Notes under the pieces: model-generated
Seen by the model: the letters and a program-made list of their open reading frames with translations, nothing else
Databases searched by the model: none
Told to the model about the DNA's origin: nothing
Source: Chloroflexota bacterium
GTDB taxonomy: Bacteria > Chloroflexota > Anaerolineae > Anaerolineales > UBA11858
NCBI GenBank assembly: GCA_016865865.1
Contig: VGOC01000031.1
Location: 1-32,812 of the forward strand
Direction: 5' to 3'
DNA: 32,812 nt
Position numbers and translations under genes: made by a program
Shown here: piece after piece, positions 171 through 31,491 of the stretch
How positions within the stretch are numbered: position 1 is the stretch's first letter
How the letters are laid out: each line of letters opens with the position of its first letter

Positions 171-1082
171 TTACTTGACCGGCGCGATCAGATACGCATA
201 CAGCGCGGCCAGGTCGTTCTCCGTCATGCGGGCGGCGTTCTGCCAGGGCATGGTTTCCGGGAAGGGACTATTTCCTGGACGAACCCCGCTGCGCATCATC
301 TCGATGAACTGCTCCTGGGTCATGGCGCTAACCAGGGGGCGCGGATTGGGAATGGCCGGCCCAAGGGAGGATGCCGGAGTGCCGGTGGCGTCCGGGCCGT
401 GACAACCCCGGCGATCGCCGTAGGTAGCCACATATTTGCCGTATTCGGCAGTCACGCCTTCAGGTGGCGCGCTGACGCTGGCGGAAGCCGGCAGCGGCTC
501 CCCAAACATCCCGGCTCCAAACATGACGGCTCCCACGAAGTTTAGCCTGTCGCCGGTTGGCCCGGCGGTGGTTGCGGCTGGCAGGCTGCGCAAGTAGGCG
601 ATGATCGCTTCGGTATCTGCATCGCTCAACTGGCTGTAACCCAGTAACGACATGAAACCGAGGAGTTGGCCGTCCCTGGTGTACCCAAAGCGCAAGGCGC
701 GGAACAATTCGCCGTCGGTATACTCTGCCAGCTTGCCGCCTGGGGTCAGATTTTCGGTGTGCATGTCGCCGACGAAGCCAAAACCTTCCGCCACAGCGAT
801 ATTCCAACCGCCGCTGAGCGGTTGCGCTTCGCTGGGGTTACCCTGGCTATCCACAGCCCCATGACAACCAATGCAACTCAAGTTGACCAGGTATTCGCCG
901 CGAGCAACCTGCTCGGGCGTACCGGCCACGGTCAGATCGGGCGCGGGATCGGCGCCGGGGAAGTAGAACGCGGCGACGCCCTTGCCGCCGAAGAAGGTCA
1001 GCGCGGCCAGGATCAACGAACCTGTCAGGCCTGGCTTCAAGGGTATCTTAACCTTCCGCCTGCACCTGCCGGGCGAAAACAA
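171..1082 (-). CDS. Membrane-anchored cytochrome c with two c-type domains, second heme motif degenerate
   Basis: N-terminal hydrophobic segment; CIGCH in first domain; RRGCH in place of CxxCH in second domain; start codon uncertain. Confidence 0.8.
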   Translation of the reverse strand: MFSPGRCRRKVKIPLKPGLTGSLILAALTFFGGKGVAAFYFPGADPAPDLTVAGTPEQVARGEYLVNLSCIGCHGAVDSQGNPSEAQPLSGGWNIAVAEGFGFVGDMHTENLTPGGKLAEYTDGELFRALRFGYTRDGQLLGFMSLLGYSQLSDADTEAIIAYLRSLPAATTAGPTGDRLNFVGAVMFGAGMFGEPLPASASVSAPPEGVTAEYGKYVATYGDRRGCHGPDATGTPASSLGPAIPNPRPLVSAMTQEQFIEMMRSGVRPGNSPFPETMPWQNAARMTENDLAALYAYLIAPVK

Positions 1083-1536: not shown

Positions 1537-2607
1537 TCATTTCTTGCGCCCGATTTTACTAATTGGGGCAATCACCCCCAGGTAGAGCAACAACGCGATG
1601 ACATTGACAAGACCGCCCCACAACCGCGCCCAGCCGAGGTCGGCCATATCGCCTGCAACGCGAAGGATCAGAGAGAGATGCAACAAGATCAGGGGGAGGT
1701 AGAACCTGGGTTTGTACTCGATATCGAAGCCCAAAACCGCCGGAAAGATGATGGGGGCGTGGCCGAAGATCATAGCGAACACAAATCCCAGGAAGATGCT
1801 GTGCAGCATGGCATCATAAATCGGTCCGGCAGGATAGCCGCCATAACGCATAGCAATCCAACCCGCAACGATCAGCCAGATATACCCGCTGAGCAGGCAG
1901 ACGGCGATGAAGCGGGTCAACCCCTCGCGTTTGACCGTCTGCCGGGCGATGTCGAAGCGCAACAGCCAGAAAGCCAGCCCCAGCATCCCAACCCCGGAGA
2001 GGCGGACACCCAAATCCCACGAAAAGAGCAGGGTTGCCAACCCGGCCAGATAGAGGGCCGTGATCCCGTAGAAGAGCGACTGGCTGGCGGATGATTTTTG
2101 GACCATGCGGCCTAATTCCAGGCGTTCACCCGCGATGGTCAAAACCAAAAAACCAGCCCACCACAGCACAAGCTGGAAAACCGGCCAGCCAATGAGCCAC
2201 AGCAAGTTGCCAACCAGCAAGGCCACAGCACCCAAGGACATAACAAACATGTAGCCAGTACGATGTTTGCGCAGGATAGCGGAAAAGATCAGCATCAGCC
2301 AGAAACTGCCAAGAGTCATCAGGATTGGACCAATCTGCTCACCCAGGTCGAAAGCCGCCAACAGGGCGCCGATCCCGCTCAGTAACGGCGAAACGTAAGC
2401 CCAGGCTTTACCCATTGCGACGGCTCTCTCGAGGGCGATCAATGTCCCGAAGAAACCAGCCACCATCAGAGGGCCATGATTGATTGGTAGCGTCGGATGC
2501 AAAACTGGCCAAGACCAACCCAAACGCAACAAACCGCCCCAGGCGGCGGCGATCAGTGTGACCAGCGCCAGAAGCATCAAAGGATAACGATAGAGTTGAT
2601 TTGGCAT
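1537..2607 (-). CDS. NnrS-family multi-TM protein
   Basis: Polytopic; HGPLMVAGFFGTLIALERAVAM and MLHSIFLGFVFAMIFGHAPIIFPAVLG resemble the NnrS family; next to nirS. Confidence 0.7.
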   Translation of the reverse strand: MPNQLYRYPLMLLALVTLIAAAWGGLLRLGWSWPVLHPTLPINHGPLMVAGFFGTLIALERAVAMGKAWAYVSPLLSGIGALLAAFDLGEQIGPILMTLGSFWLMLIFSAILRKHRTGYMFVMSLGAVALLVGNLLWLIGWPVFQLVLWWAGFLVLTIAGERLELGRMVQKSSASQSLFYGITALYLAGLATLLFSWDLGVRLSGVGMLGLAFWLLRFDIARQTVKREGLTRFIAVCLLSGYIWLIVAGWIAMRYGGYPAGPIYDAMLHSIFLGFVFAMIFGHAPIIFPAVLGFDIEYKPRFYLPLILLHLSLILRVAGDMADLGWARLWGGLVNVIALLLYLGVIAPISKIGRKK

Positions 2608-2708: not shown

Positions 2709-3011
2709 TTACTTTGCCCAACCAAGCTGCTTCCTGGCGCTATCAGACATCATTTCGGGTGACCAGGGCGGGTCCCAGACCAGCTCGATGGTCATTTCAC
2801 CCAAATTGGGGTAGGCCCGCCGCAAGGCTTTATCCATATTGCGGGCAATCACCCCATGCAGAGGGCAGGCTGGAGAGGTCATGGTAAGCTGGATATAGAG
2901 TTCTTCTGACCTGATCTCCACTTTGTAGATCAGACCCAGGTCCACGATGTTCACGCCGACCTCGGGATCGAGAACGACTTTCAGGGTTTCAAGGATAGCG
3001 TCAGGGGTCAT
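2709..3011 (-). CDS. DUF59/MIP18-like metal-sulfur cluster assembly protein
   Basis: DPEVGVNIVDLGLIYKVEI...LTMTSPACPL motif. Confidence 0.85.
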   Translation of the reverse strand: MTPDAILETLKVVLDPEVGVNIVDLGLIYKVEIRSEELYIQLTMTSPACPLHGVIARNMDKALRRAYPNLGEMTIELVWDPPWSPEMMSDSARKQLGWAK

Positions 3012-3090: not shown

Positions 3091-5433
3091 TTAGTAGATG
3101 TCATGCACGGTGTTGTAAACGTTGAATTTGCCGGTTGGCGTGATTAGATCAGGGATGCGCCTGATCTCCTCCAGAGTGGCGTCGTCGTAGATCACGATCT
3201 CGCCGGTCTTTCCGGGGGTGTCGGCGGTGCCCCACACGCTGACCCACACCTGAGTGCCGTCTTTGTTGTATTCGAAGTGCACAGCCCGGCCATAATCTGC
3301 CACTTCCCAACACCTGTAGGGTTCAGTAGGATGATCCTTGGCGATCACGCAGACGGTGCGCTGAATCGCCTCGTCGGTGTTCAGGACGTGATCCACCCAA
3401 ATCCACTGGCTATTGGGATGGGTCTTGATGAACAAACCGCCGCCGCCCAGGAGGGGGATATTGCGGACGACTTTCCAGGCGGATTCAGGATGACCTTCGG
3501 GGTCGGTGCCGATGGCGATCAGCGCCCCCTCGCCCAGGTGGGAGGTGCTCCAGACCGGGCCGAATTCGGGATCAACCCAGTTGGCGCCGCGCCCGGGGTG
3601 AGGGACAGCCGGAGTATCCACCAGGGCTTCCAGGTCGCCTTCCAGGGCGTCTACCACTGCGACGGTGTTGGCCTGATTGGCCGCCACCATGAAGTACCGC
3701 TTGGTCGAATCCCAACCGCCGTCGTGCAGGAAGCGCTCGGCCTCGATCATCTTGATGGTGGGATTGACCGGGTCGGAATAATCCACCAGCCAGACCTGGC
3801 CGGTCTCTTTGACGTTGATGATCCACTCCGGCTCGAAGTGGGAGGCCACAATCGAGGCGACGCGCGGCTCGGGGTGGAATTCCTCGGTGTCGTAGGTGTA
3901 GCTGCGTGTGCTGACCACCTTGAAGGGTTCCAGGGTTTCCCCATCCATGATGACGAAATGCGGGGGCCAGTAACAACCCACCACGGCGTACTTGTCGGTG
4001 AAATCACCCAACTCGCCCTCGTATTTGCTGACTTCCACCGAACGGGCGTCGTAACAGGTCTTCACTTCGGCCACTTTGTCGGGGATCTCCATCCAGAGAT
4101 CAATCAGAGCCAGCTTTCCATCGCGCCCGATGGTATAGACATAGCGACCGGTGGCCGACATGCGCGAAATATGCACAGCGTAACCGGTGTCCACGGTGTT
4201 GACCACCTCGAAGGTGTCGCCATCAATAATGGCGACCTGGCCGGCATCTCGCAGAGTCACTGCAAAGTAGTTCTCCCAATCACGGTTAGTTTCGGGCCGG
4301 GCAGGACGCTGATCCACGGGGACGATCACGTTCCATGAAGCCAGCATCTGCTCCAGCGACATTTCGGGCGGTTGAGGCGGCTCATTCTGGATGAATCGCG
4401 CCATCAGATCGGTTTCTTCCTGGGTGAGGGTGCCTTGCTTACCCCAATCGGGCATGCCGCGGGGTGTACCGTTGAAGATGATCGCCGATAGCGCCAAAGT
4501 GCCCTTTGCCAGGGTCTTGTCTGGCGTCAGGGCTGGGCCGGTCGCGCCGTTGCGCAGCACGCCGTGACAGCCCGCGCATCGGTCGAAGAAGATCTGGGTG
4601 GCCTTAGCCCACTCTTCATCGGTCAATGGAGGCGCTTCTCCCACCAGAGCCAGCTCTGGTTGCTCCGTGAGCGTTGCGGCGCTATCCGGCAAGCCCGACA
4701 GGAATTCTGTGACAGCCTCGAGTTCTTGTTCAGTCAGGAGTGTGCCGAATGTGGCAGGCATCAGGCCTTTTTGGCAGTGGCCGCCTGGGCAGTCGGTGGG
4801 GACGAAGGCGTCTGGGTTGACCAGCGACTCATAGATGTACTCCTCGACGGATGTGGCCTCTCCCTGGTATTCCCCGCTTTGCAGGCGATCTTCCGCCACC
4901 ACGCCTATCTCGGACAGATTGGGACCGACCGCGCCCACTGCGCCCGTCACCCCAGGGATCACATGACATCCCCCGCAGCCGCCTTTCGTAAAGGCGCCGC
5001 CAAGAACAGAACCTCCAGCTTGCGCCGCCTCTGGCGCGCCCGCATCCCAGGCGCGGATAGAGGCAACGACATCTCGGATATCTTCATCTGTCAACGGGCC
5101 GCCAAAATCCACGCTCCAGGCAGGCATTTGTGTGCCAGGTACACCTGAGCGGATCACGGAGAAGAAGACCTCATCCAGGGTATTCTTCAACACCTGTTGA
5201 TCGTTCAGAGCAGGTCCTACGACGCCTTGCCCTTCCTCTCCATGGCAGGAGGCGCATTGCGTCTGATAGATCGTCTGGCCTCGCTTGACGCGCTCCTCAG
5301 CGAGCGACAAGGAAGTTCGACCTAACCGACCGGATTCTCGGCTCCAATAGAAGGAAAAACCAACCAGAATCAATAGCGTGAATACCAATCCAATGACAAA
5401 GTAACGTTCGTAGTTCGGTTCGTTCTTGTCCAT
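3091..5433 (-). CDS. nirS: Membrane-anchored cytochrome cd1 nitrite reductase with two additional N-terminal cytochrome c domains
   Basis: N-terminal TM helix; CASCH, CGGCH and CAGCH motifs; NirS signatures YAVHISRMSATGRYVYTIGRDGKL, FLHDGGWD, PHPGRGANW...GPVWSTSHLGEG; ATG at 5433 follows AGGTGG. Confidence 0.9.
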   Translation of the reverse strand: MDKNEPNYERYFVIGLVFTLLILVGFSFYWSRESGRLGRTSLSLAEERVKRGQTIYQTQCASCHGEEGQGVVGPALNDQQVLKNTLDEVFFSVIRSGVPGTQMPAWSVDFGGPLTDEDIRDVVASIRAWDAGAPEAAQAGGSVLGGAFTKGGCGGCHVIPGVTGAVGAVGPNLSEIGVVAEDRLQSGEYQGEATSVEEYIYESLVNPDAFVPTDCPGGHCQKGLMPATFGTLLTEQELEAVTEFLSGLPDSAATLTEQPELALVGEAPPLTDEEWAKATQIFFDRCAGCHGVLRNGATGPALTPDKTLAKGTLALSAIIFNGTPRGMPDWGKQGTLTQEETDLMARFIQNEPPQPPEMSLEQMLASWNVIVPVDQRPARPETNRDWENYFAVTLRDAGQVAIIDGDTFEVVNTVDTGYAVHISRMSATGRYVYTIGRDGKLALIDLWMEIPDKVAEVKTCYDARSVEVSKYEGELGDFTDKYAVVGCYWPPHFVIMDGETLEPFKVVSTRSYTYDTEEFHPEPRVASIVASHFEPEWIINVKETGQVWLVDYSDPVNPTIKMIEAERFLHDGGWDSTKRYFMVAANQANTVAVVDALEGDLEALVDTPAVPHPGRGANWVDPEFGPVWSTSHLGEGALIAIGTDPEGHPESAWKVVRNIPLLGGGGLFIKTHPNSQWIWVDHVLNTDEAIQRTVCVIAKDHPTEPYRCWEVADYGRAVHFEYNKDGTQVWVSVWGTADTPGKTGEIVIYDDATLEEIRRIPDLITPTGKFNVYNTVHDIY

Positions 5434-5442
5434 TTTTACCAC

Positions 5443-5928
5443 CTAGATTTTCGTGAGATGAGAGGGATCATGATGAGAGCGGTCTACCGGATGGCCCGTA
5501 TCCACCCAAATTTCATCATCAACGACCTCTACAGGGAAATAACTCATCGCCCGCGGGGCTGGGCCTCCCAGCAACTCGCCAACCCGGTCGAAAGTCGAGC
5601 CGTGGCAGGGGCAGTGGAAGATGCCTTCTTGCTCATTCCAGGGAACCGCGCAGCCCAGATGCGGACATTTTTGCCATAGCGCGATGACGCCCTCCTCTGT
5701 TCGCGAAATATAGAAACGCCCTGCCAATATCCGGTTGACGCTGTTTATAGAAAAGGTTGCCAGTTTGCCGGCATACACCAATCCCCCAAACCCTCCTGTC
5801 GAGATCGGCTTGATGAATTTCAGGGTTGCGATCACTGCCTGGGCAAAAATCAATGACAGAGACCCTGCCCAGGCAAGGCCTAAGAAGCTGCGGCGGGAGA
5901 GGGGTTTTGTGGATTCATTTGTGCTCAT
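5443..5928 (-). CDS. Rieske [2Fe-2S] protein of a b6f/bc-type complex
   Basis: CPHLGC...CPCHGS; TAT-like SRRSFLG signal. Confidence 0.92.
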   Translation of the reverse strand: MSTNESTKPLSRRSFLGLAWAGSLSLIFAQAVIATLKFIKPISTGGFGGLVYAGKLATFSINSVNRILAGRFYISRTEEGVIALWQKCPHLGCAVPWNEQEGIFHCPCHGSTFDRVGELLGGPAPRAMSYFPVEVVDDEIWVDTGHPVDRSHHDPSHLTKI

Positions 5929-5947: not shown

Positions 5948-6724
5948 TTACAGATTGTCCCAAGGACTGTAATCCCCTGGCATATTCCAGGGCCAATATA
6001 GCTCGAAGCCGGGTCCGCGGAACAAAAATCCGGTCAGCGTAAAAACGATCGCGCTGAGGAACAACACGGTAAAAAGGGCTAACATCACCTCGCGGGCGTT
6101 GGGTTGATAGCGCAGTAATACCAGCAGAGGCAGAAGGACGATCACCGACATGATGATAGCAGGGAATACGACATTCAGGACGAAGTCGGGCAACTGACCT
6201 CTCAAGATTTCTCGAATTGGGAAGGAGGTGTCCAAAAGAATGTAAGCGGGCATGGCGAGGCATACATAGATCGCTGTGAACAACACGATCCGTTTTCCGC
6301 GCTTCGATGTGAACCAGATACCCTTCCCGGCAGGAGTATGATCGAGATAGGGTATGGCGATGACGAACAGCACCATCAAAGTGGGCATCAGGATGGCCAT
6401 CAGGGTGGGGTGGCCGTGCTCGAGCATCTCCTGCAACCCCATGAAATACCAGGGCGCTTTCGCGGGATCTGTAGTGATGATGGGATTGGCGATCTCCTCG
6501 AGGGGGGCGTTGACAGCCAGGGACATCAGCAGCAGCGCCAGAATCACGCCCAGGGTCAATAACAATTCCATGATCGCCACGATGGGGAAAGCGAAGATCG
6601 TATCATCCGGCCCGTGATCGGCCATGGGGGTGGGCGCTTTGACCAGCTCGACAAGGGAGTAGGTTTTCATCTGACGATCTTCTGGGCTGAAACTTTCCGG
6701 TTTTTTGTCGGTCGTTCGTTTCAT
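5948..6724 (-). CDS. Cytochrome bc/b6f subunit IV-like protein
   Basis: DPAKAPWYFMGLQEML and PYLD motifs, multiple TM helices; ATG at 6724. Confidence 0.85.
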   Translation of the reverse strand: MKRTTDKKPESFSPEDRQMKTYSLVELVKAPTPMADHGPDDTIFAFPIVAIMELLLTLGVILALLLMSLAVNAPLEEIANPIITTDPAKAPWYFMGLQEMLEHGHPTLMAILMPTLMVLFVIAIPYLDHTPAGKGIWFTSKRGKRIVLFTAIYVCLAMPAYILLDTSFPIREILRGQLPDFVLNVVFPAIIMSVIVLLPLLVLLRYQPNAREVMLALFTVLFLSAIVFTLTGFLFRGPGFELYWPWNMPGDYSPWDNL

Positions 6725-6728
6725 ATCT

Positions 6729-7469
6729 CTATTCCTTATCCTCTTCCGCAGGGTCTTGCACGGCCAAACCGCCATCCTTGCGCACTCGCCACAGATGTAA
6801 CGAGGTCAGTAAGGCGATCACGCCTGGAATGAGCATGACATGCAGCGCGTAGAAGCGGGTCAACGCTTCCTGCCCAACTTCCGGCCCTCCTAGCAAAGCG
6901 GCTTTGATCGCGCTCCCCATGATCGGCTCATACCCCGCCACGCTTGTGCCAACCGTGATCGCCCAATATGCCAGTTGATCCCAGGGCAGCAGGTAGCCGG
7001 TAAAACTCGCGCCCAATGTCAAAATCAAGAGCAAGACGCCAACCACCCAATTGAATTCCCTGGGGGGTTTGTAAGCGCCGGTGTAGAAAACTCGCGCCAT
7101 ATGCAGTACAACCACGATCACCATCAGATGCGCCCCCCAACGATGCAAGTTCCTGAGCAATTGGCCGAAGGGTACGCGGGTCTGCAGAGTCAGGATGTAG
7201 CTGTAAGCCCGTTCTATCGTGGGCGCGTAGTAGAACATCAACAACAGGCCGGTGATGCTCAGAACCGTAAAGACGATCACCGAGATAATCCCTAATCCAA
7301 ACGAGTAAGTGGCTCGCAGACTTTTCCGCCTGACTTTGACCGGATGCAAGTGGAAGAAGATGTTGGTGGTCATCACCAGTGAGCGATCCAGCGGGTTATC
7401 GGGCCAGCCATGTCTGAAGAATGATCGCCAGACACGTGATCGAGTGATGAAATTGATCAATTTACTCAT
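6729..7469 (-). CDS. Cytochrome b6-like protein
   Basis: LRNLHRWGAHLMVIVVVLHMARVFYTGAYKPPREFNWVVGV, GYLLPWDQLAYWAITVGT. Confidence 0.92.
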   Translation of the reverse strand: MSKLINFITRSRVWRSFFRHGWPDNPLDRSLVMTTNIFFHLHPVKVRRKSLRATYSFGLGIISVIVFTVLSITGLLLMFYYAPTIERAYSYILTLQTRVPFGQLLRNLHRWGAHLMVIVVVLHMARVFYTGAYKPPREFNWVVGVLLLILTLGASFTGYLLPWDQLAYWAITVGTSVAGYEPIMGSAIKAALLGGPEVGQEALTRFYALHVMLIPGVIALLTSLHLWRVRKDGGLAVQDPAEEDKE

Positions 7470-7482
7470 GCGTATCTCCTAA

Positions 7483-9513
7483 CTAACGAATGACTTCCTG
7501 GAAACGAAAGGCTTCCATCGTAATCGCATCCGTAGGGCAGCGTTCGGCGCATAACGCGCAACGGGTACAGGCGTTATCATCTTTGAGCATCGCGGCAAGG
7601 GGGAAGGGAGCCTCTTCAAGAAACGAAGATAGCGATGTCCCAAGATAGGCTTCGACCACCTTTCGATATTGTTCATCTCCTTCGAGCTGATCAAGCGTGA
7701 CGATCTTGAGGCAATCCCAGGGACAGACATCAACGCAGGCATTACACAGGATACATTTGCTGCCATCGAAGATGGTATTGACGCTGCACTCCAGGCACCG
7801 GCTTCCCTGCTCGGCTGCCTCCCCCTCTGAATAACCCACCTCGACCACCGCGATGCCCGTCCGCCGATCCAACGGAAGAGAAGGCACTGTACGGCGCTGG
7901 AGTTTGGTCCAGTTTTCGAAAAGGACATGATTGGATAGTTCTGTCCACTCGATCCTGGTTTCCACGCTAAGCGGCTGCCCCTGGACGAAACCCTCGATCC
8001 CTAAAGCTGCCAGATGCCCATGTTTGACCGCATCAATGATCAGCCGGGGGCCATAAGAGACATCACCGCCGGCAAACACATCTGGCGCGCTGGTCTGCCC
8101 TGTCGCCTGATTGATTTCCACCAATCCACGCGCCGAGAGCCGAATATCGTCCGCGCCGCCCAGCACGCCGAGGTCAGCCTGCTGACCAATCGCCAGGATC
8201 AACGTATCGCACTCCCACACCTCTTCTGTGTTGGGCTTGAATTTGGGATCGAAATGTCCCTGCACATCAAACACCGATTCGACTGCGATGACCTCCAATC
8301 CAGTGACCCTGCCGTTTTCCCCCAGGATGCGGTTCGGCCCGAGCCGTGTGAAGATGCGAATGCCTTCTTCGAGGGCGTCCTCCAGCTCGATCTCCGAGGC
8401 CGGCATCTCGTCCCAATCCTCCAGGGCGATCATTCTCACATCCGCCACACCTAGGCGAATGGCAGTGCGGGCGACATCGATGGCTGTGCTGACGGTCTCG
8501 GATTCTTCCTCTGCGCGCGCTTCGGTGTCGGCCAACGCCGCCTGCTGAGCCGCGCTGAGCTGCCCAACCCGCAAGGCTGTACGAGCGGCATCCATGGCTA
8601 CATCGCCGCCGCCAACCACCAGCACCTTCTTCCCCAGCCTGACTTCATAGCCCAAGTTGTAATTCAGCAGCAGATCAACCGCCGTGATGACGCCGTCCAG
8701 GTTTGCCCCCTCGATATCGAGCGAGCGCCCTTTCATGAGGCCAATCCCAAGGAAAACAGCATCGTTCTCTTTCCGAAGGTCAGCCAGCGTGATCTGATCC
8801 CCAATCGGCGTGTTATAGCGTATTTCCACTCCCAGATCCAGGATCTCCTGGATTTCCAGATCCATATCTACCTGGTCAATTCGGTAGAGAGGCACGCCAT
8901 AACGCAACATCCCGCCGCTTTTTGGCCCGGCCTCGTAGATCGTGACTTTGTGCCCCAGGAGCGCCAGGTCGTGAGCCACGGTGAGGCCAGCGGGGCCAGA
9001 ACCGATCACGGCGATTTTAGCCTTTCTGCGTCCAGGCCGTGACGCCAGTTGCATGAGTTGCCTGCGCGACCAACGAGCGGGAGAATACTGTACGGAAGCG
9101 CCGAGGCCGGGAGCATCCTGGATAGGGGCAATTGCTTTTTGCGGGCTCGAGAAAAACCGTCGAAATCCAGGGACGCTCGTTGATACGCCGGAGGATGCCC
9201 CACGGCGCGATTCCGGCCCGTATCGCTCCGTCAGCACGCGCTTGATGGGTCGGATAGCGACCGGCTTTGCCTCGGGGCCAATATCTCCCCGACGGCAGGC
9301 AGTTTCACAGGGCGCGCCGCAGATGCGCCCGCAAATCGTCGAGAGCGGATTTGGGTCGTGCGCAATTTCATAACCCAGCTCGATTTCCCCTCGCGCCGCG
9401 GCGGTCACATAACCACGTGCATCCGTGTAAACAGGACAGGCAGCCTGGCACTTGATCATCTCGCGCCAGGTATCGGTGGTAGGAACTTTCACACGATACT
9501 TGTTTTTGAACAT
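7483..9513 (-). CDS. GltD-like FAD/NAD(P)-dependent oxidoreductase with Fe-S domains
   Basis: N-terminal CGRICGAPCETACRRG; VIGSGPAGLTVAHDLALLGHKVTIYEA; C-terminal CILCNACVDVCP and CTRCALCAERCP. Confidence 0.9.
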   Translation of the reverse strand: MFKNKYRVKVPTTDTWREMIKCQAACPVYTDARGYVTAAARGEIELGYEIAHDPNPLSTICGRICGAPCETACRRGDIGPEAKPVAIRPIKRVLTERYGPESRRGASSGVSTSVPGFRRFFSSPQKAIAPIQDAPGLGASVQYSPARWSRRQLMQLASRPGRRKAKIAVIGSGPAGLTVAHDLALLGHKVTIYEAGPKSGGMLRYGVPLYRIDQVDMDLEIQEILDLGVEIRYNTPIGDQITLADLRKENDAVFLGIGLMKGRSLDIEGANLDGVITAVDLLLNYNLGYEVRLGKKVLVVGGGDVAMDAARTALRVGQLSAAQQAALADTEARAEEESETVSTAIDVARTAIRLGVADVRMIALEDWDEMPASEIELEDALEEGIRIFTRLGPNRILGENGRVTGLEVIAVESVFDVQGHFDPKFKPNTEEVWECDTLILAIGQQADLGVLGGADDIRLSARGLVEINQATGQTSAPDVFAGGDVSYGPRLIIDAVKHGHLAALGIEGFVQGQPLSVETRIEWTELSNHVLFENWTKLQRRTVPSLPLDRRTGIAVVEVGYSEGEAAEQGSRCLECSVNTIFDGSKCILCNACVDVCPWDCLKIVTLDQLEGDEQYRKVVEAYLGTSLSSFLEEAPFPLAAMLKDDNACTRCALCAERCPTDAITMEAFRFQEVIR

Positions 9514-9776: not shown

Positions 9777-10529
9777 CTACAAATCACACAGACCCGAAGA
9801 ATCTACACGCTCGGCCTCGTTCACATTCTGGATGATGTCTTCTGCAATCGTCACTAATCCATGCGGCGAAAGGATCACCACCTGCTGACGTTTACTCTGC
9901 ACCAGGCCTCTGCTTTCCCAACTCTTGAGCACCCGGCTGACCGTGAACAATGTTGTGCCTGTCAACTCGGCCAAATCCTGGCGCGACAGCCGAAGGTCGA
10001 GCAGCACCCCCTGTTCGATTGTACGCCCCGATTGGTGGGCTAACCGCAAGACCGCCCTGGCAACGCGCTGCTCGACCTTCTGCGTGGATAGCTCGCGGAC
10101 TCTATTCTGCAATTCGCGAATTTGTCCCGCCATGATGTGCATAGCGTTCAAAGCCAGGCGCGGCGCGCCCTCCATCAGTCGATTCATCGTCACCCGGTCC
10201 CAGGCCAGGGCCCGGCACTTCCCCACCGCCTCGGCAGAAACCGGATAGGCGACATGCTTCAGGATGGCAATAATCCCGAACACCCGGCCGGGAACAAGGT
10301 ATCCCAGGATCACCTGTAATCCGTTGGTTGTCACCTGAGTGAGTTTGACCTTGCCTTCGATGAGCACATAAGCGATTTCAGCCGGATCTTCCTCCATGAA
10401 AAAATACGCCCCATCTTTCAGCTCATGGATATTGGCTGCCGCGATCACCGGATCGAATTCCGCATCGTCGAGACCGCGAAATATAGCTGCCCTGCGGATA
10501 AGGTCTGTCTCTGCTCGGGAGAGTTCCAT
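9777..10529 (-). CDS. Crp/Fnr-family transcriptional regulator
   Basis: cNMP-binding-like N-terminus and HTH LSRQDLAELTGTTLFTVSRVLKSWESRGLV; no FNR-type N-terminal Cys cluster. Confidence 0.9.
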   Translation of the reverse strand: MELSRAETDLIRRAAIFRGLDDAEFDPVIAAANIHELKDGAYFFMEEDPAEIAYVLIEGKVKLTQVTTNGLQVILGYLVPGRVFGIIAILKHVAYPVSAEAVGKCRALAWDRVTMNRLMEGAPRLALNAMHIMAGQIRELQNRVRELSTQKVEQRVARAVLRLAHQSGRTIEQGVLLDLRLSRQDLAELTGTTLFTVSRVLKSWESRGLVQSKRQQVVILSPHGLVTIAEDIIQNVNEAERVDSSGLCDL

Positions 10530-26903: not shown

Positions 26904-27067
26904 AGCAGCCTGTCGGAGAGGAACAATTAACGCCCTCCTGCTCACGCCGGATTGTCAAATCCGGCGCTCCAGCGGGCTGTGAGGGGCTGTTTTGCGCCAT
27001 TGGCTGCCTGCTTTAGCCTGGATTTGGCAATCCAGGCCGAGCGAATTTCTCTCTCCGACAAACTGCT
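26904..27067. repeat. MITE-like element with nested hairpins
   Basis: Outer AGCAGCCTGTCGGAGAGGAA / AGCAGTTTGTCGGAGAGAGAA; inner GCCGGATT-GTCA-AATCCGGC (26946-26965) and GCCTGGATT-TGGC-AATCCAGGC (27016-27037). Confidence 0.65.
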
Positions 27068-27773
27068 AGAGCCGGTATAACATTCCCAACCCCGCGAGCC
27101 TGGGGCAGACTCCTGCTAAACGCAGCAGTTCCCACATTGTAGCCTGGTTTGCGCTGACGACAGGTTTTCCCAGGTCTTTCTCCAACGCCTCTAATGTGTC
27201 GGCGGTGCGGAAGTTCGTACAACTGATGACCACAGCCTCTGCATCGGGGACATCAACTTCCCGAGCCAACTGGTAGGACGCCCCTACCGGCTGGGTATAG
27301 ATGCCATGCGTCAGGCCCATTCCCTTGATCGTCAGCACCTCGAATCCGTTTCCCTCCAGGAATATGCGCAGCCGTCCCGTGACATCATCCGGGTAGGGAG
27401 CGGCGACGGCCAGTTTGCGAACGCCAAGAGAAGATAAAGCCTTCACGATGGCTGTCGAGGTGGTCGTGCAGGGCGCGCCGGCGGCGGCTTCCATTCGCTT
27501 GATGATCTCCTGATCTCTCCCCGCGCCATAGATAAAACTCCCTGATGTGCATGCGTAGCCAATCGAATCGGGGCTGATCACGCTCAGGTGTGCGGCCGCC
27601 TGTTCGATATCGGGGCTATTTGCCTGCTCCTCGAAGACCTCCACAGTCTGCTCGTCGGTAGCCGCGAAGCGGGTGATGTGGACGGTGACACCTTCCGGGA
27701 CTAATTTCCAATACTCGTCATCCAGCGCCCCATCCGCCGGATAAACGATGCCTATTTTTGCACGCCATGACAT
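27066..27773 (-). CDS. Asp/Glu racemase superfamily (maleate isomerase/EutA/AMDase-like)
   Basis: KIGIVYPADG, CTSGSF and SCTNFRT motifs with both catalytic-type Cys. Confidence 0.85.
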   Translation of the reverse strand: MSWRAKIGIVYPADGALDDEYWKLVPEGVTVHITRFAATDEQTVEVFEEQANSPDIEQAAAHLSVISPDSIGYACTSGSFIYGAGRDQEIIKRMEAAAGAPCTTTSTAIVKALSSLGVRKLAVAAPYPDDVTGRLRIFLEGNGFEVLTIKGMGLTHGIYTQPVGASYQLAREVDVPDAEAVVISCTNFRTADTLEALEKDLGKPVVSANQATMWELLRLAGVCPRLAGLGMLYRL

Positions 27774-29050
27774 AGGGGATCCTCATCAAACGCCTGCCAC
27801 AGAATCGAGACTGGATGTTTCGTCGGCAAACCGGTTCCACGCCTCATTCGGAGCTGGCAAGGACCGCACTCGCTGACCGCCAGGTCGGGCTGACTCTGGG
27901 CCAGGGCGTCGAGCAGATGCTGCCCAACGGCCAGGCTGAGATCATGCTTCTCGTTCTTCAGACCATAACTCCCTGACAGGCCGCAACAGATGGTATCCAG
28001 CACCTCGATCTGCATTCCGGGGATTCGTTCAAGCAACTCGACGAAAGGCTTGCCGATGCGTTGGGCCTTCAAGTGGCAGGGGGTGTGATAACTCATTCGC
28101 TCCGGAACCGGCTTCAGCTTGCTCAACTCCAGCAGCCCATCTTCGACCAGAATTCTGAGATACTCGCCCAGGTCGTAGGCTCGACTGGCCAACGCCTCGG
28201 CGGCGCGCAATCCCAGAGTCCCGGTGTACTCCTCTTTGAGCATGAGGCTGCCTGTGGTGCAGGCGGCGACCACATCATAGCCCTGCTCCAACCAGGGCAG
28301 AAAGGAAGCCAGATTGGCTTCGGCGCGCCTTCGAGCGCCATCCAAATCGCCATTGCCCACCATCGGCATACCGCAACACTGCTGCTGCGGCACAGCCACA
28401 TGCACCCCCAGGCGGTCGAGCAGCATGACAGTATCTTTCGCGGGCTGTGTGTAACTATAACTGTTGAAACACAGGCACAGGCTGCAATGGTCAATGTTCC
28501 CCTCGACTGGCACCCCCTCCCCCTGTGAAACGGGAATGCCAGCCCCGATCATGGAAGATAGCAAATCAGGCCTGGGTTCCATGCGATCCATCTCGTAGCC
28601 GACCGGGCAGGCAGCCGTGCAGATTGTGCACTCGATACAGCGCGAGACGTTGGCGTAATCCACCTTCGATTCGGGGAGCGCAACGGCCCGAGGCTGTTCG
28701 ACGGCGATCTGCTCCAGTCGTTGTTCGCGCTCCTGCTGGCTGACGACCAGGTCCCTGACGATGGGAAGTTTTGGCAAAGCAGCCAGGGTGATATCGCCGC
28801 CGTCGAGCACTTCCCGGCAGGCTAACACGGGTTTGTTATTCAACAAGACAGCGCATGTGCCGCACTTACTGCTCCGGCAGGATGAGCGAAAGGCCAGCGA
28901 GCTATCCTGATCTTGTTGAATCAATTCCAGAACTTCCAGCACCGTCATGCTTGGATGAAAGTCCACCTGGTACATTTGGGTATAACAGGGCGGCTCACGA
29001 TCTGGATCATACCGCTGGATGTGTACCTGGAAAGTTTTAGCGGATGTCAT
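27752..29050 (-). CDS. TfrB-like iron-sulfur subunit: FrdB-type ferredoxin fused to HdrD-like CCG domains
   Basis: CRSSKCGTCAVLLNNKPVLAC, CIECTICTAACP, CSLCLCF, QQQCCGMP, ICCGLSGSYG. Confidence 0.85.
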   Translation of the reverse strand: MTSAKTFQVHIQRYDPDREPPCYTQMYQVDFHPSMTVLEVLELIQQDQDSSLAFRSSCRSSKCGTCAVLLNNKPVLACREVLDGGDITLAALPKLPIVRDLVVSQQEREQRLEQIAVEQPRAVALPESKVDYANVSRCIECTICTAACPVGYEMDRMEPRPDLLSSMIGAGIPVSQGEGVPVEGNIDHCSLCLCFNSYSYTQPAKDTVMLLDRLGVHVAVPQQQCCGMPMVGNGDLDGARRRAEANLASFLPWLEQGYDVVAACTTGSLMLKEEYTGTLGLRAAEALASRAYDLGEYLRILVEDGLLELSKLKPVPERMSYHTPCHLKAQRIGKPFVELLERIPGMQIEVLDTICCGLSGSYGLKNEKHDLSLAVGQHLLDALAQSQPDLAVSECGPCQLRMRRGTGLPTKHPVSILWQAFDEDPLCHGVQK

Positions 29051-30738
29051 TCTGCGCCCTCCTCGCCTGACCCAGGGCGGAGTTCACTCATCACCGGTGG
29101 CCGGCGCGCTGCCCTCAGATGACCACCTTCCAGGGTAACTTCGATACAGAACGGCGTGGAGGCCTCTTCTGGGAAGTCCTGCCGATAATGCGCGCCGCGG
29201 CTCTCCTGACGCTCCAGCGCAGATTGAACGATGGTCTGCGCAACGGTGATCATATTTTTCAATTCCAGATAAGACACCAGGCTGTGGTTCTGAAGCAGGC
29301 TGGGGCCGCTCATGCTGATCTGTGGTAGCAACTCCTGCTCCAGGCCGATCAACTCATACCTGGCTGCTGTTAGGCCTGCGCCGTCGCGTATCACACCTGC
29401 GTACTGCCACATGAGTCGCCGCAAGCGCTGTTTGCCTTGTGAAGGAGTCAGGCGTCCATTGCGCCGGTTCACCAAACCACGGATTTCTCTTTCTACCTCG
29501 GCAGCTTGCGCCTGTTCGGGGGTTGGACGAATTGCTCCGCGGGCGTAACCGGCCGCATGCGCGCCTGCTCGCGCCCCAAACACCAGGATCTCCGCCAGAC
29601 TGTTGCCGCTGAGACGGTTGCCCCCCTGCACCCCCCCAGAGACTTCACCCGCCGCATACAATCCGGGTACGGAGGCGCATCCGCTGATATCTATAGCAAC
29701 GCCGCCCATGAAATAATGCGCCGCCGGAGCCACTTCGAGGCGCACAAGCTGCATATCGAAGCCGCGGTCTCTGGCGACTTCGTATTCATGCTGAAAACTG
29801 AGGAAGGTCTCTTTTGGCACATCCGTAGCATCGAGGTAAACGCCGCCATGTGCTGTGCCGCGCCCTTCGACGATCTCTGTAAAGATAGCCCGCGCCAGGC
29901 GATCGCGGGTGGTGTGTTCCAACAATTCGGGTTCGTAACGCGCCATGAAGCGTTCTTCTTCGCTGTTGTATAGGGCGGCGTATTCTTGAATCCCCAGGAT
30001 GAAACCGCGCAGTGAGGGGGGATGAACCAGCCCGCAGGGGTAGAATTGCACCTGTTCCATATTGAGCAGGCGCGCGCCGGCCCGTAGAGCCAGCGCCAGG
30101 CCGTCGCCGGTGTTCTGAATCGGGTTGCTCGTGCTCGGGTAGAGTTGGCCGACGCCCCCTGTGGCTAAAACAACCGCCGGCGCGTTCACCTGGACAACCT
30201 CCCCGACGCCCACATCGAGGCCTATCGCGCCGGCAATCGCCCCGTTATGGATGAGCAATCGGCAGGCCATCACGTCGGGGCATCGCTCGATCTGGCGCAG
30301 CCGGGCTTGATTGCGAAGCACTTTGACCATCTGCAAACCCACCCGGTCGCTGATCGTCATCACGCGGGGGTAACTATGTCCCCCGGCCTGGTCCAGGACA
30401 TACCTCCCATCGGGGCCGCGGTCGAATTTCAACCCCCAGCTCTCCATCTCTACGATGCGCTGCTGAGCTTCTTCGACCAGGATGCGCACCATAGGCTGAT
30501 CGTTGAGGTACGCGCCGCCGATGACTGTGTCGCGGAATTGCACATTGGCGTTATCGCCCGGCTTGCTCCAGGGGCCTACCGCCGAGACTCCCGCGCCCCC
30601 AACGGTGCTGCCCCCGCGCCCAATCAGCCCTTTATCCCGGACGTAGACGCGCCCGCCTCCATCTGCCGCGCGGATGGCGGCATAGAGGCCAGCCCCGCCA
30701 GTGCCGATGACTAAGATGTCGGCTTCATATCGTCTCAC
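29047..30738 (-). CDS. Fumarate reductase/succinate dehydrogenase flavoprotein-like subunit (TfrA-like)
   Basis: VIGTGGAGLYAAIRAADGG; HYFMGGVAIDISG; PGLYAAGEVSGGVQGGNRLSGNSLAEILVFG; 4-nt overlap with the downstream Fe-S subunit. Confidence 0.88.
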   Translation of the reverse strand: MRRYEADILVIGTGGAGLYAAIRAADGGGRVYVRDKGLIGRGGSTVGGAGVSAVGPWSKPGDNANVQFRDTVIGGAYLNDQPMVRILVEEAQQRIVEMESWGLKFDRGPDGRYVLDQAGGHSYPRVMTISDRVGLQMVKVLRNQARLRQIERCPDVMACRLLIHNGAIAGAIGLDVGVGEVVQVNAPAVVLATGGVGQLYPSTSNPIQNTGDGLALALRAGARLLNMEQVQFYPCGLVHPPSLRGFILGIQEYAALYNSEEERFMARYEPELLEHTTRDRLARAIFTEIVEGRGTAHGGVYLDATDVPKETFLSFQHEYEVARDRGFDMQLVRLEVAPAAHYFMGGVAIDISGCASVPGLYAAGEVSGGVQGGNRLSGNSLAEILVFGARAGAHAAGYARGAIRPTPEQAQAAEVEREIRGLVNRRNGRLTPSQGKQRLRRLMWQYAGVIRDGAGLTAARYELIGLEQELLPQISMSGPSLLQNHSLVSYLELKNMITVAQTIVQSALERQESRGAHYRQDFPEEASTPFCIEVTLEGGHLRAARRPPVMSELRPGSGEEGAE

Positions 30739-30747
30739 GTGCGTTCC

Positions 30748-31491
30748 TCAATCGCCTAATCGAAAGAGACTCCCCAACCCCGGCTGTGCTTCGTGCACAC
30801 CGGCCAACCTCAGCGTATGCCACATGGAGGCCATGTTGGCGCTGAAGACCGGTTTGCCGAAATCATCTTCCAGGCTCTGGGCGATGGGGCTGAGCACGAT
30901 GCCGGTATCGCTGACGAAGATCGCCTCCGCCTCGGGGGTGTCTGCCTGCAAAACCAGCTCTCGCAGAGCCGGAGCGCCCAACCGGCCGATGTCCCAATCC
31001 CGGGTCAGATTCAACCCGACCTGATTGACCACCTCGAAACCGAAATGCTCCACATATTGAACCAGTTTCTCGTTGAGACGGGGTTCATAGGGCGTCGCCA
31101 GGGCGACTTTTTTCACGTGCAACGCTTCGAAAGCCGTCACCAGCGCAGTGGAGGTGGTGGTTGCCGGGCAGCCGCTATGCGCGCTGAGGCGCTGGCGCAG
31201 TTGTTCGTCCCACCCAGGGCCGCGGCTGAAACTGCCCGATGTGCACATCCAGCACAGCGCGTGGGGATACACGGTAGCTAGATCAGCCGCCAGTCGCTCG
31301 AATGGTTCCCCTCCGGCGACCTCGGTCATAGTTTCCAGGGTTACGCTTCCCTCTTCATCGGGCATGCTGGTGCGGGTGATGTGAATCGATACTCCCGCTG
31401 GCGCGAGGTGGTAATACTCCATATCGGCCAATCCCGAAGCCGGATAGATGATGCCCAGGCGCGCTCGCCAGCCAAAAAGATTGTGTTCCAT
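30748..31491 (-). CDS. Asp/Glu racemase superfamily paralog lacking the second Cys
   Basis: RLGIIYPASG, CTSGSF, but FVSDTGI where the paralog has ISCTNF. Confidence 0.82.
   Translation of the reverse strand: MEHNLFGWRARLGIIYPASGLADMEYYHLAPAGVSIHITRTSMPDEEGSVTLETMTEVAGGEPFERLAADLATVYPHALCWMCTSGSFSRGPGWDEQLRQRLSAHSGCPATTTSTALVTAFEALHVKKVALATPYEPRLNEKLVQYVEHFGFEVVNQVGLNLTRDWDIGRLGAPALRELVLQADTPEAEAIFVSDTGIVLSPIAQSLEDDFGKPVFSANMASMWHTLRLAGVHEAQPGLGSLFRLGD

Follow-up and report, generated by a model that had tools for sequence, protein, structure and literature searches.

Organization of the locus

The window, by which we mean the whole analysed stretch of 32,812 nucleotides, encodes on its minus strand a NirS-type protein joined to a membrane-anchored cytochrome c domain, directly downstream of genes for a Rieske/cytochrome b complex. 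Its main features are given below; residues of the fused protein (P0001) are numbered from V1 at 5442.

1537–2607, minus strand: polytopic membrane protein (mem356) of 356 aa with no Pfam hit, a conserved 3′ neighbour of unfused nirS in Chloroflexota
2709–3011, minus strand: SufT-like MIP18-family protein, a conserved 3′ neighbour of unfused nirS
3091–5433, minus strand: fused gene for TM-C0-C1-C2-NirS, 780 aa, ATG at 5433
3094–4281, minus strand: d1 propeller, with His424, His573 and His615
4363–4659, minus strand: C2, the usual heme c domain of NirS, with CAGCH at 289 and Met330
4678–5010, minus strand: C1 cytochrome c domain, with CGGCH at 156 and Met227, equivalent to C1 of Chloroflexi C1-C2-NirS (PMC8756737)
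5005–5034, minus strand: C0/C1 linker, the fusion junction, placed by alignment of the fused and tri-heme proteins
5035–5307, minus strand: C0 cytochrome c domain, with CASCH at 63 and Met106, homologous to domain 1 of a bc-complex tri-heme cytochrome
5344–5403, minus strand: single TM helix, residues 14–33, from hydropathy on relatives and a helix in the AF2 model
5443–5928, minus strand: b6f-like Rieske protein, also matching the Rieske structures 9rk4 and 9rk3, which we take to be Kuenenia proteins
5948–6775, minus strand: subunit IV-like protein, with APWYF at the Qo-loop position
6729–7469, minus strand: cytochrome b6-like subunit, in which Ser replaces the heme cN cysteine
7483–9513, minus strand: GltD-like FAD/NAD(P) oxidoreductase with C-terminal 2[4Fe-4S] (Fer4 domains), the first gene of the cassette
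9777–10529, minus strand: Crp/Fnr-type regulator, in relatives directly upstream of unfused nirS

The minus-strand frame is open from 5442 to 3091 (783 codons), and the plus strand of 3091–5433 is not open. Homologues support the ATG at 5433 as the start, which gives the window's fused gene 780 aa and a product of 85.4 kDa; an in-frame GTG at 5442, upstream of this ATG, is the less likely start. As the original prediction had it, the gene directly follows the Rieske gene: its ATG, preceded by AGGTGG, lies 9 bp beyond the Rieske stop codon. The cassette runs in the order NAD(P)-oxidoreductase, b6, subunit IV and Rieske, then fused nirS, and cytochrome b6, subunit IV and a Rieske protein with HLGC/CPCHG, all present in the window, form a b6f-like set. 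The heme cN cysteine (Cys35 of b6) is Ser or Thr in all 26 aligned cassette b6 proteins, and subunit IV carries APWYF where PEWY is expected. The loss of this cysteine would be compatible with an altered N side of the complex, of which it is no proof.

Neither cytochrome c1 (PF02167) nor cytochrome f (PF16639) was found by profile search in the 94%-complete host genome or in three relatives with the fusion, so that the predicted lack of a c1/f gene applies to the whole host genome as well as to the window. A second Rieske/b6 set is located on host contig C15 (L178) together with a 737-aa protein having seven CxxCH motifs. No narG was found in the window's genome, and the nitrite must therefore come from elsewhere. 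Elsewhere in the window, a cytochrome c protein encoded at 171–1082 (minus strand) lacks the first cysteine of its second heme motif (RRGCH), which reflects either a single-Cys heme or a sequence error, and at 27066–31491 (minus strand) two arylmalonate-decarboxylase-like genes flank those for an SdhA-like flavoprotein and an Fe-S/CCG protein in an uncharacterised catabolic cluster.

The fused protein as NirS

The predicted succession of a TM helix, CASCH, CGGCH and CAGCH domains and a d1 propeller is real, and it is not a product of chance because seven assemblies share it. As the window is part of a draft assembly (168 contigs), misassembly might have joined two unrelated genes into a chimera. 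However, the seven assemblies belong to two lineages with differing linkers and flanking genes, and the junction is in-frame; misassembly was rejected on account of these independent copies, its probability being practically negligible. Cytochrom_D1 of Pfam matches residues 388–778 (E 1e-131), the match of PF02239 to the fused protein reaches 441.6 bits, and C0 of the window matches Cytochrome_CBB3/Cytochrom_C only. An AF2 model of the fused protein (49 sequences) has a pLDDT of 81 and a pTM of 0.71, with good confidence for d1 and C2, moderate confidence for C1 and poor confidence for C0, because only seven alignment rows cover C0.

In a phmmer search, residues 255–783 aligned end to end with Pseudomonas aeruginosa NirS (5guw/1nir) at 619 bits, against 152 bits for 6rtd, an entry labelled 'cytochrome c' that presumably represents NirN, and 30 bits for NirF. 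The fused protein is therefore NirS rather than NirN or NirF, in agreement with the original prediction. H424, H573 and H615 align with His182 and His327/His369 of the Pseudomonas enzyme and are invariant in the alignment, and the pocket residues His573 and His615 lie exactly 42 residues apart, as had been noted. Met106, Met227 and Met330 are candidate Met ligands and His424 is the d1 ligand; the candidate heme ligands and the d1-pocket ligands are retained in the window's protein. Pseudomonas cytochrome cd1 NirS is a soluble, periplasmic enzyme that receives electrons from c551 or azurin. The window's protein shares with it (1nir, 5guw) the C2 and d1 domains, the ligands and the spacing of the His pair; in contrast, the Pseudomonas gene is encoded with nir biosynthesis genes, which were not found in the window's genome.

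NirF and NirN were detected in no Chloroflexota genome checked with PF02239, the host included, and this profile detects NirF/NirN beside NirS in Magnetobacterium and Persephonella. The host genome (94% complete) yielded no radical SAM protein above the NirJ cut-off and no match to siroheme decarboxylase, and canonical NirJ was found in none of the Chloroflexota NirS genomes checked. A radical SAM gene within a heme operon, hemACDB-rSAM-hemE, was considered as NirJ and rejected, since it scores below the NirJ cut-off. Siroheme decarboxylase was not found in most of the Chloroflexota NirS genomes checked, with weak matches in a few. Heme d1 may be absent in the host or may be made by a route other than the known one. 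That the d1 biosynthesis genes were not found is the main caveat to the reduction of nitrite to NO, which is the predicted activity of the fused NirS. In the isolate Anaerolinea thermolimosa (G567, C1:319358-320958), the NirS frame is split into two overlapping frames with a TGA, and this nirS may be inactive or contain a sequence error.

The same gap in d1 biosynthesis, seen in the host and in other Chloroflexota with this NirS, would fit a relative of NirS that is inactive on nitrite, either lacking heme d1 or using some other cofactor, and that serves, for instance, as a sensor or as another kind of oxidoreductase on the bc complex. However, the match to cytochrome cd1 extends over more than 500 aligned residues, no residue of the d1 pocket varies in the alignment, and both kinds of cassette, fused and parent, are associated with nar operons and a Crp/Fnr regulator; such a protein is accordingly quite improbable.

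Parentage of the N-terminal domain

A survey covered 80 related NirS loci. Six of these share TM-C0-C1-C2-d1 with the window, most of the others encode C1-C2-d1, and a third set encodes C2-d1 only. Upstream context was counted for the 58 loci with at least 3 kb of upstream sequence, among which subunit IV and Rieske genes were adjacent to all five fused loci and to none of the 53 unfused ones; the full cassette lies upstream in four of the five. The C1-C2-NirS chimera has already been described from Chloroflexi (Schwartz et al., 2022; PMC8756737) and corresponds to NirS clade 1g in another study (PMC10999283). The window's protein shares C1, C2 and d1 with it, whereas the described chimeras have no bc-derived C0 and their listed neighbourhoods contain no Rieske/cytochrome b genes. 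Since C1 is already present in the published chimera, the extra part is C0 and not a di-heme module; by sequence comparison, C0 is the new part of the window's protein.

Relatives of the window's b6, 67–86% identical to it, are encoded in the same gene order, with a separate cytochrome of ~380 aa, having one TM helix and three CxxCH motifs, in the slot of nirS. The TM-C0 domain of this tri-heme cytochrome is 42–69% identical to that of the window, and the alignment of fused and tri-heme proteins breaks right after C0. By this alignment, the fusion retained the TM helix and C0 of the bc-complex cytochrome, whose other two heme domains gave way to C1-C2-NirS. No copy of the tri-heme cytochrome was found in the host genome. 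Because cassette relatives have the tri-heme gene in the nirS slot and share TM-C0 with the fusion, the fused gene is taken to be that of the complex's c subunit.

The original prediction had placed a di-heme module, analogous to the di-heme QcrC of actinobacterial bc1 complexes, in the position of cytochrome c1. The replacement itself stands: the fusion holds the c-subunit slot, bears the N-terminal domain of this subunit and comes from a genome with no cytochrome c1/f. The QcrC-like module, on the other hand, dissolves into a C0 from the tri-heme bc cytochrome and a C1 from the chimeric Chloroflexi NirS. QcrC is likewise a membrane-anchored multi-domain c cytochrome in the cytochrome c1 place and would function similarly, whereas the parent here is tri-heme, and the score against NF050122 (44 bits, against a cut-off of 200) reflects generic cytochrome c similarity; with the tri-heme parent found, a QcrC origin of the extra domains was rejected.

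The N-terminal domain might also provide only a membrane anchor and an electron inlet for a NirS that is not a subunit of the complex and takes electrons from any periplasmic cytochrome or, by collision, from the bc complex. Anchoring alone is common, as unfused C1-C2-NirS proteins mostly have an N-terminal hydrophobic helix too. However, C0 is the N-terminal part of the complex's own c subunit and stands in that subunit's slot in both fusions, and nothing else of the c subunit is left in the host genome, which makes a mere anchor unlikely.

Two independent fusions

In a tree of b6, subunit IV and Rieske proteins, the fused loci fall in two places: the window and C14-27 branch within the tri-heme group of the genus to which the window belongs, and the fused group of Desulfolinea lies next to G434/G462. 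AU tests rejected a single fused clade for b6+IV+Rieske (p 2.6e-4), for C0 alone (p 4.6e-4) and for C1-C2-d1 (p 9e-58), and the window's C1-C2-d1 nests within the Chloroflexi C1-C2-NirS family. One ancient fusion is thus rejected on both halves of the protein, and these phylogenies indicate that the fusion arose at least twice, in two lineages of uncultured Chloroflexota. Two loci stand apart from the common pattern. L038, which nests with the fused clade and appears without C0, has a run of N (an assembly gap) inside C1 and carries no weight. At L035:6644-7988, fused NirS is accompanied by frameshifted subunit IV and Rieske genes, and no b6 or oxidoreductase gene was found in the stretch covered; this partial cassette, due either to assembly error or to decay, is kept as an exception.

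Unfused counterparts and linkage to nar genes

A member of the window's genus (G539, the same as G568) has the order pcm-glmS-crp-[C1-C2-NirS]-mem356, with the tri-heme cassette elsewhere in its genome, and the window reads pcm-glmS-crp-[oxidoreductase-b6-IV-Rieske-C0]-C1-C2-NirS-suf-mem356, where pcm and glmS are names that we assigned from reading the sequences. In the window the cassette separates crp from nirS; the two genes are adjacent in G539. On one 27-kb contig of G426, from the same family, both parents are present unfused with narGHJI between them. The Desulfolinea cluster has the order diheme c-narG-narH-narJ-narI-narK-narK-fmdE-oxidoreductase-b6-IV-Rieske-fusion, and G462 is gene-for-gene syntenic with it, with the tri-heme cytochrome as its last gene.

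In seven genomes (G426, G464, G499, G514, G537, G554 and G462; the Rieske and tri-heme frames of G554 were not resolved in the ORF list), narG lies next to a cassette that has no NirS, and the parent complex therefore probably serves N-oxide respiration. At loci L145-L161, L239, L248 and L249, the oxidoreductase/b6/IV/Rieske/tri-heme cassette is often joined to diheme c-narGHJI-narK and sometimes to an FmdE-family gene. The Chloroflexota tri-heme cassette apparently encodes a bc complex dedicated to nitrate respiration.

Proposed electron path and comparison with known systems

Judging from the domain architecture and the origin of its parts, from the replacement of the tri-heme cytochrome in the same slot, from the two fusions and from the nar linkage of the parent complex, the fused protein is probably the c subunit of a b6f-like Rieske/cytochrome b complex, in which the last two heme domains have been replaced by C1-C2-NirS to give a covalent quinol:nitrite oxidoreductase. 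In the simplest reading, a Rieske/cytochrome b complex of nitrate respiration would have had its c subunit turned into a nitrite reductase. Menaquinol would give up its electrons at the Qo site formed by b6 and subunit IV, and one electron would pass from the Rieske protein through C0, C1 and C2 to heme d1, where nitrite would be reduced to NO outside the membrane. This direct wiring, which had also been foreseen, is what we infer, and such a membrane-bound enzyme would need no diffusible electron carrier. The other electron would return via the b hemes to reduce either quinone, in a Q-cycle, or, by way of the GltD-like subunit, NAD(P)+.

An NAD(P)/FAD oxidoreductase is encoded with b6-IV-Rieske in the window and its relatives, as in Kuenenia-type complexes. 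Two Kuenenia Rieske/cytochrome b complexes, Kuste4569-4574 and Kustd1480-1485, have been described (PMC12954380). Kuste4569-4574 brings together b6-like, subunit IV-like and Rieske proteins, a multiheme c cytochrome, an NAD(P) oxidoreductase and an HAO-like nitrite reductase candidate, and transfer of an electron to NAD(P)+ via the oxidoreductase has been proposed (PMC12954380). The Kuenenia complexes resemble the window's in their b6- and IV-like proteins, the Rieske protein, a c cytochrome in place of cytochrome f and the NAD(P) oxidoreductase, a likeness of shared protein families, but the candidate for nitrite reduction, proposed for Kuste4569-4574, is an HAO-like octaheme protein in its own right, whereas in the window NirS and the c subunit form one polypeptide. 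A covalent version of the Kuenenia scheme, in which a fusion-based quinol:nitrite oxidoreductase, evolved twice, would bifurcate quinol electrons, passing one to nitrite and driving the other uphill to NAD(P)+ via the GltD-like subunit, is put forward as a tentative possibility. Haloarchaeal nar clusters also contain Rieske/cytochrome b genes (narB, narC; PMC7754194, PMC4683180). As in the window, a bc-type complex is encoded there with an N-oxide reductase, which it is thought to feed; unlike in the window, this reductase acts on nitrate and not nitrite, and is not fused.

Implications

C1-C2-NirS and Rieske/cytochrome b complexes tied to N-oxide reductases were known before. The merging of NirS with a bc c subunit, twice, is apparently new: the open-access literature searched contained no report of NirS fused to a bc-complex subunit, and a review in which Desulfolinea nitratireducens is named is silent on the gene in its main text. 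The link to nitrogen oxides of Rieske/cytochrome b complexes that have unusual c subunits and NAD(P) oxidoreductases, for example those of anammox bacteria, has long been a puzzle. That the gene fusion was repeated in two lineages argues strongly for a joint function of the two parts, and it suggests that the tri-heme Chloroflexota bc complex belongs to nitrate/nitrite respiration. A single 85-kDa protein now offers a test object for direct electron transfer from a bc complex to nitrite, and the two independent fusions point to one machine that would burn membrane quinol directly on nitrite.
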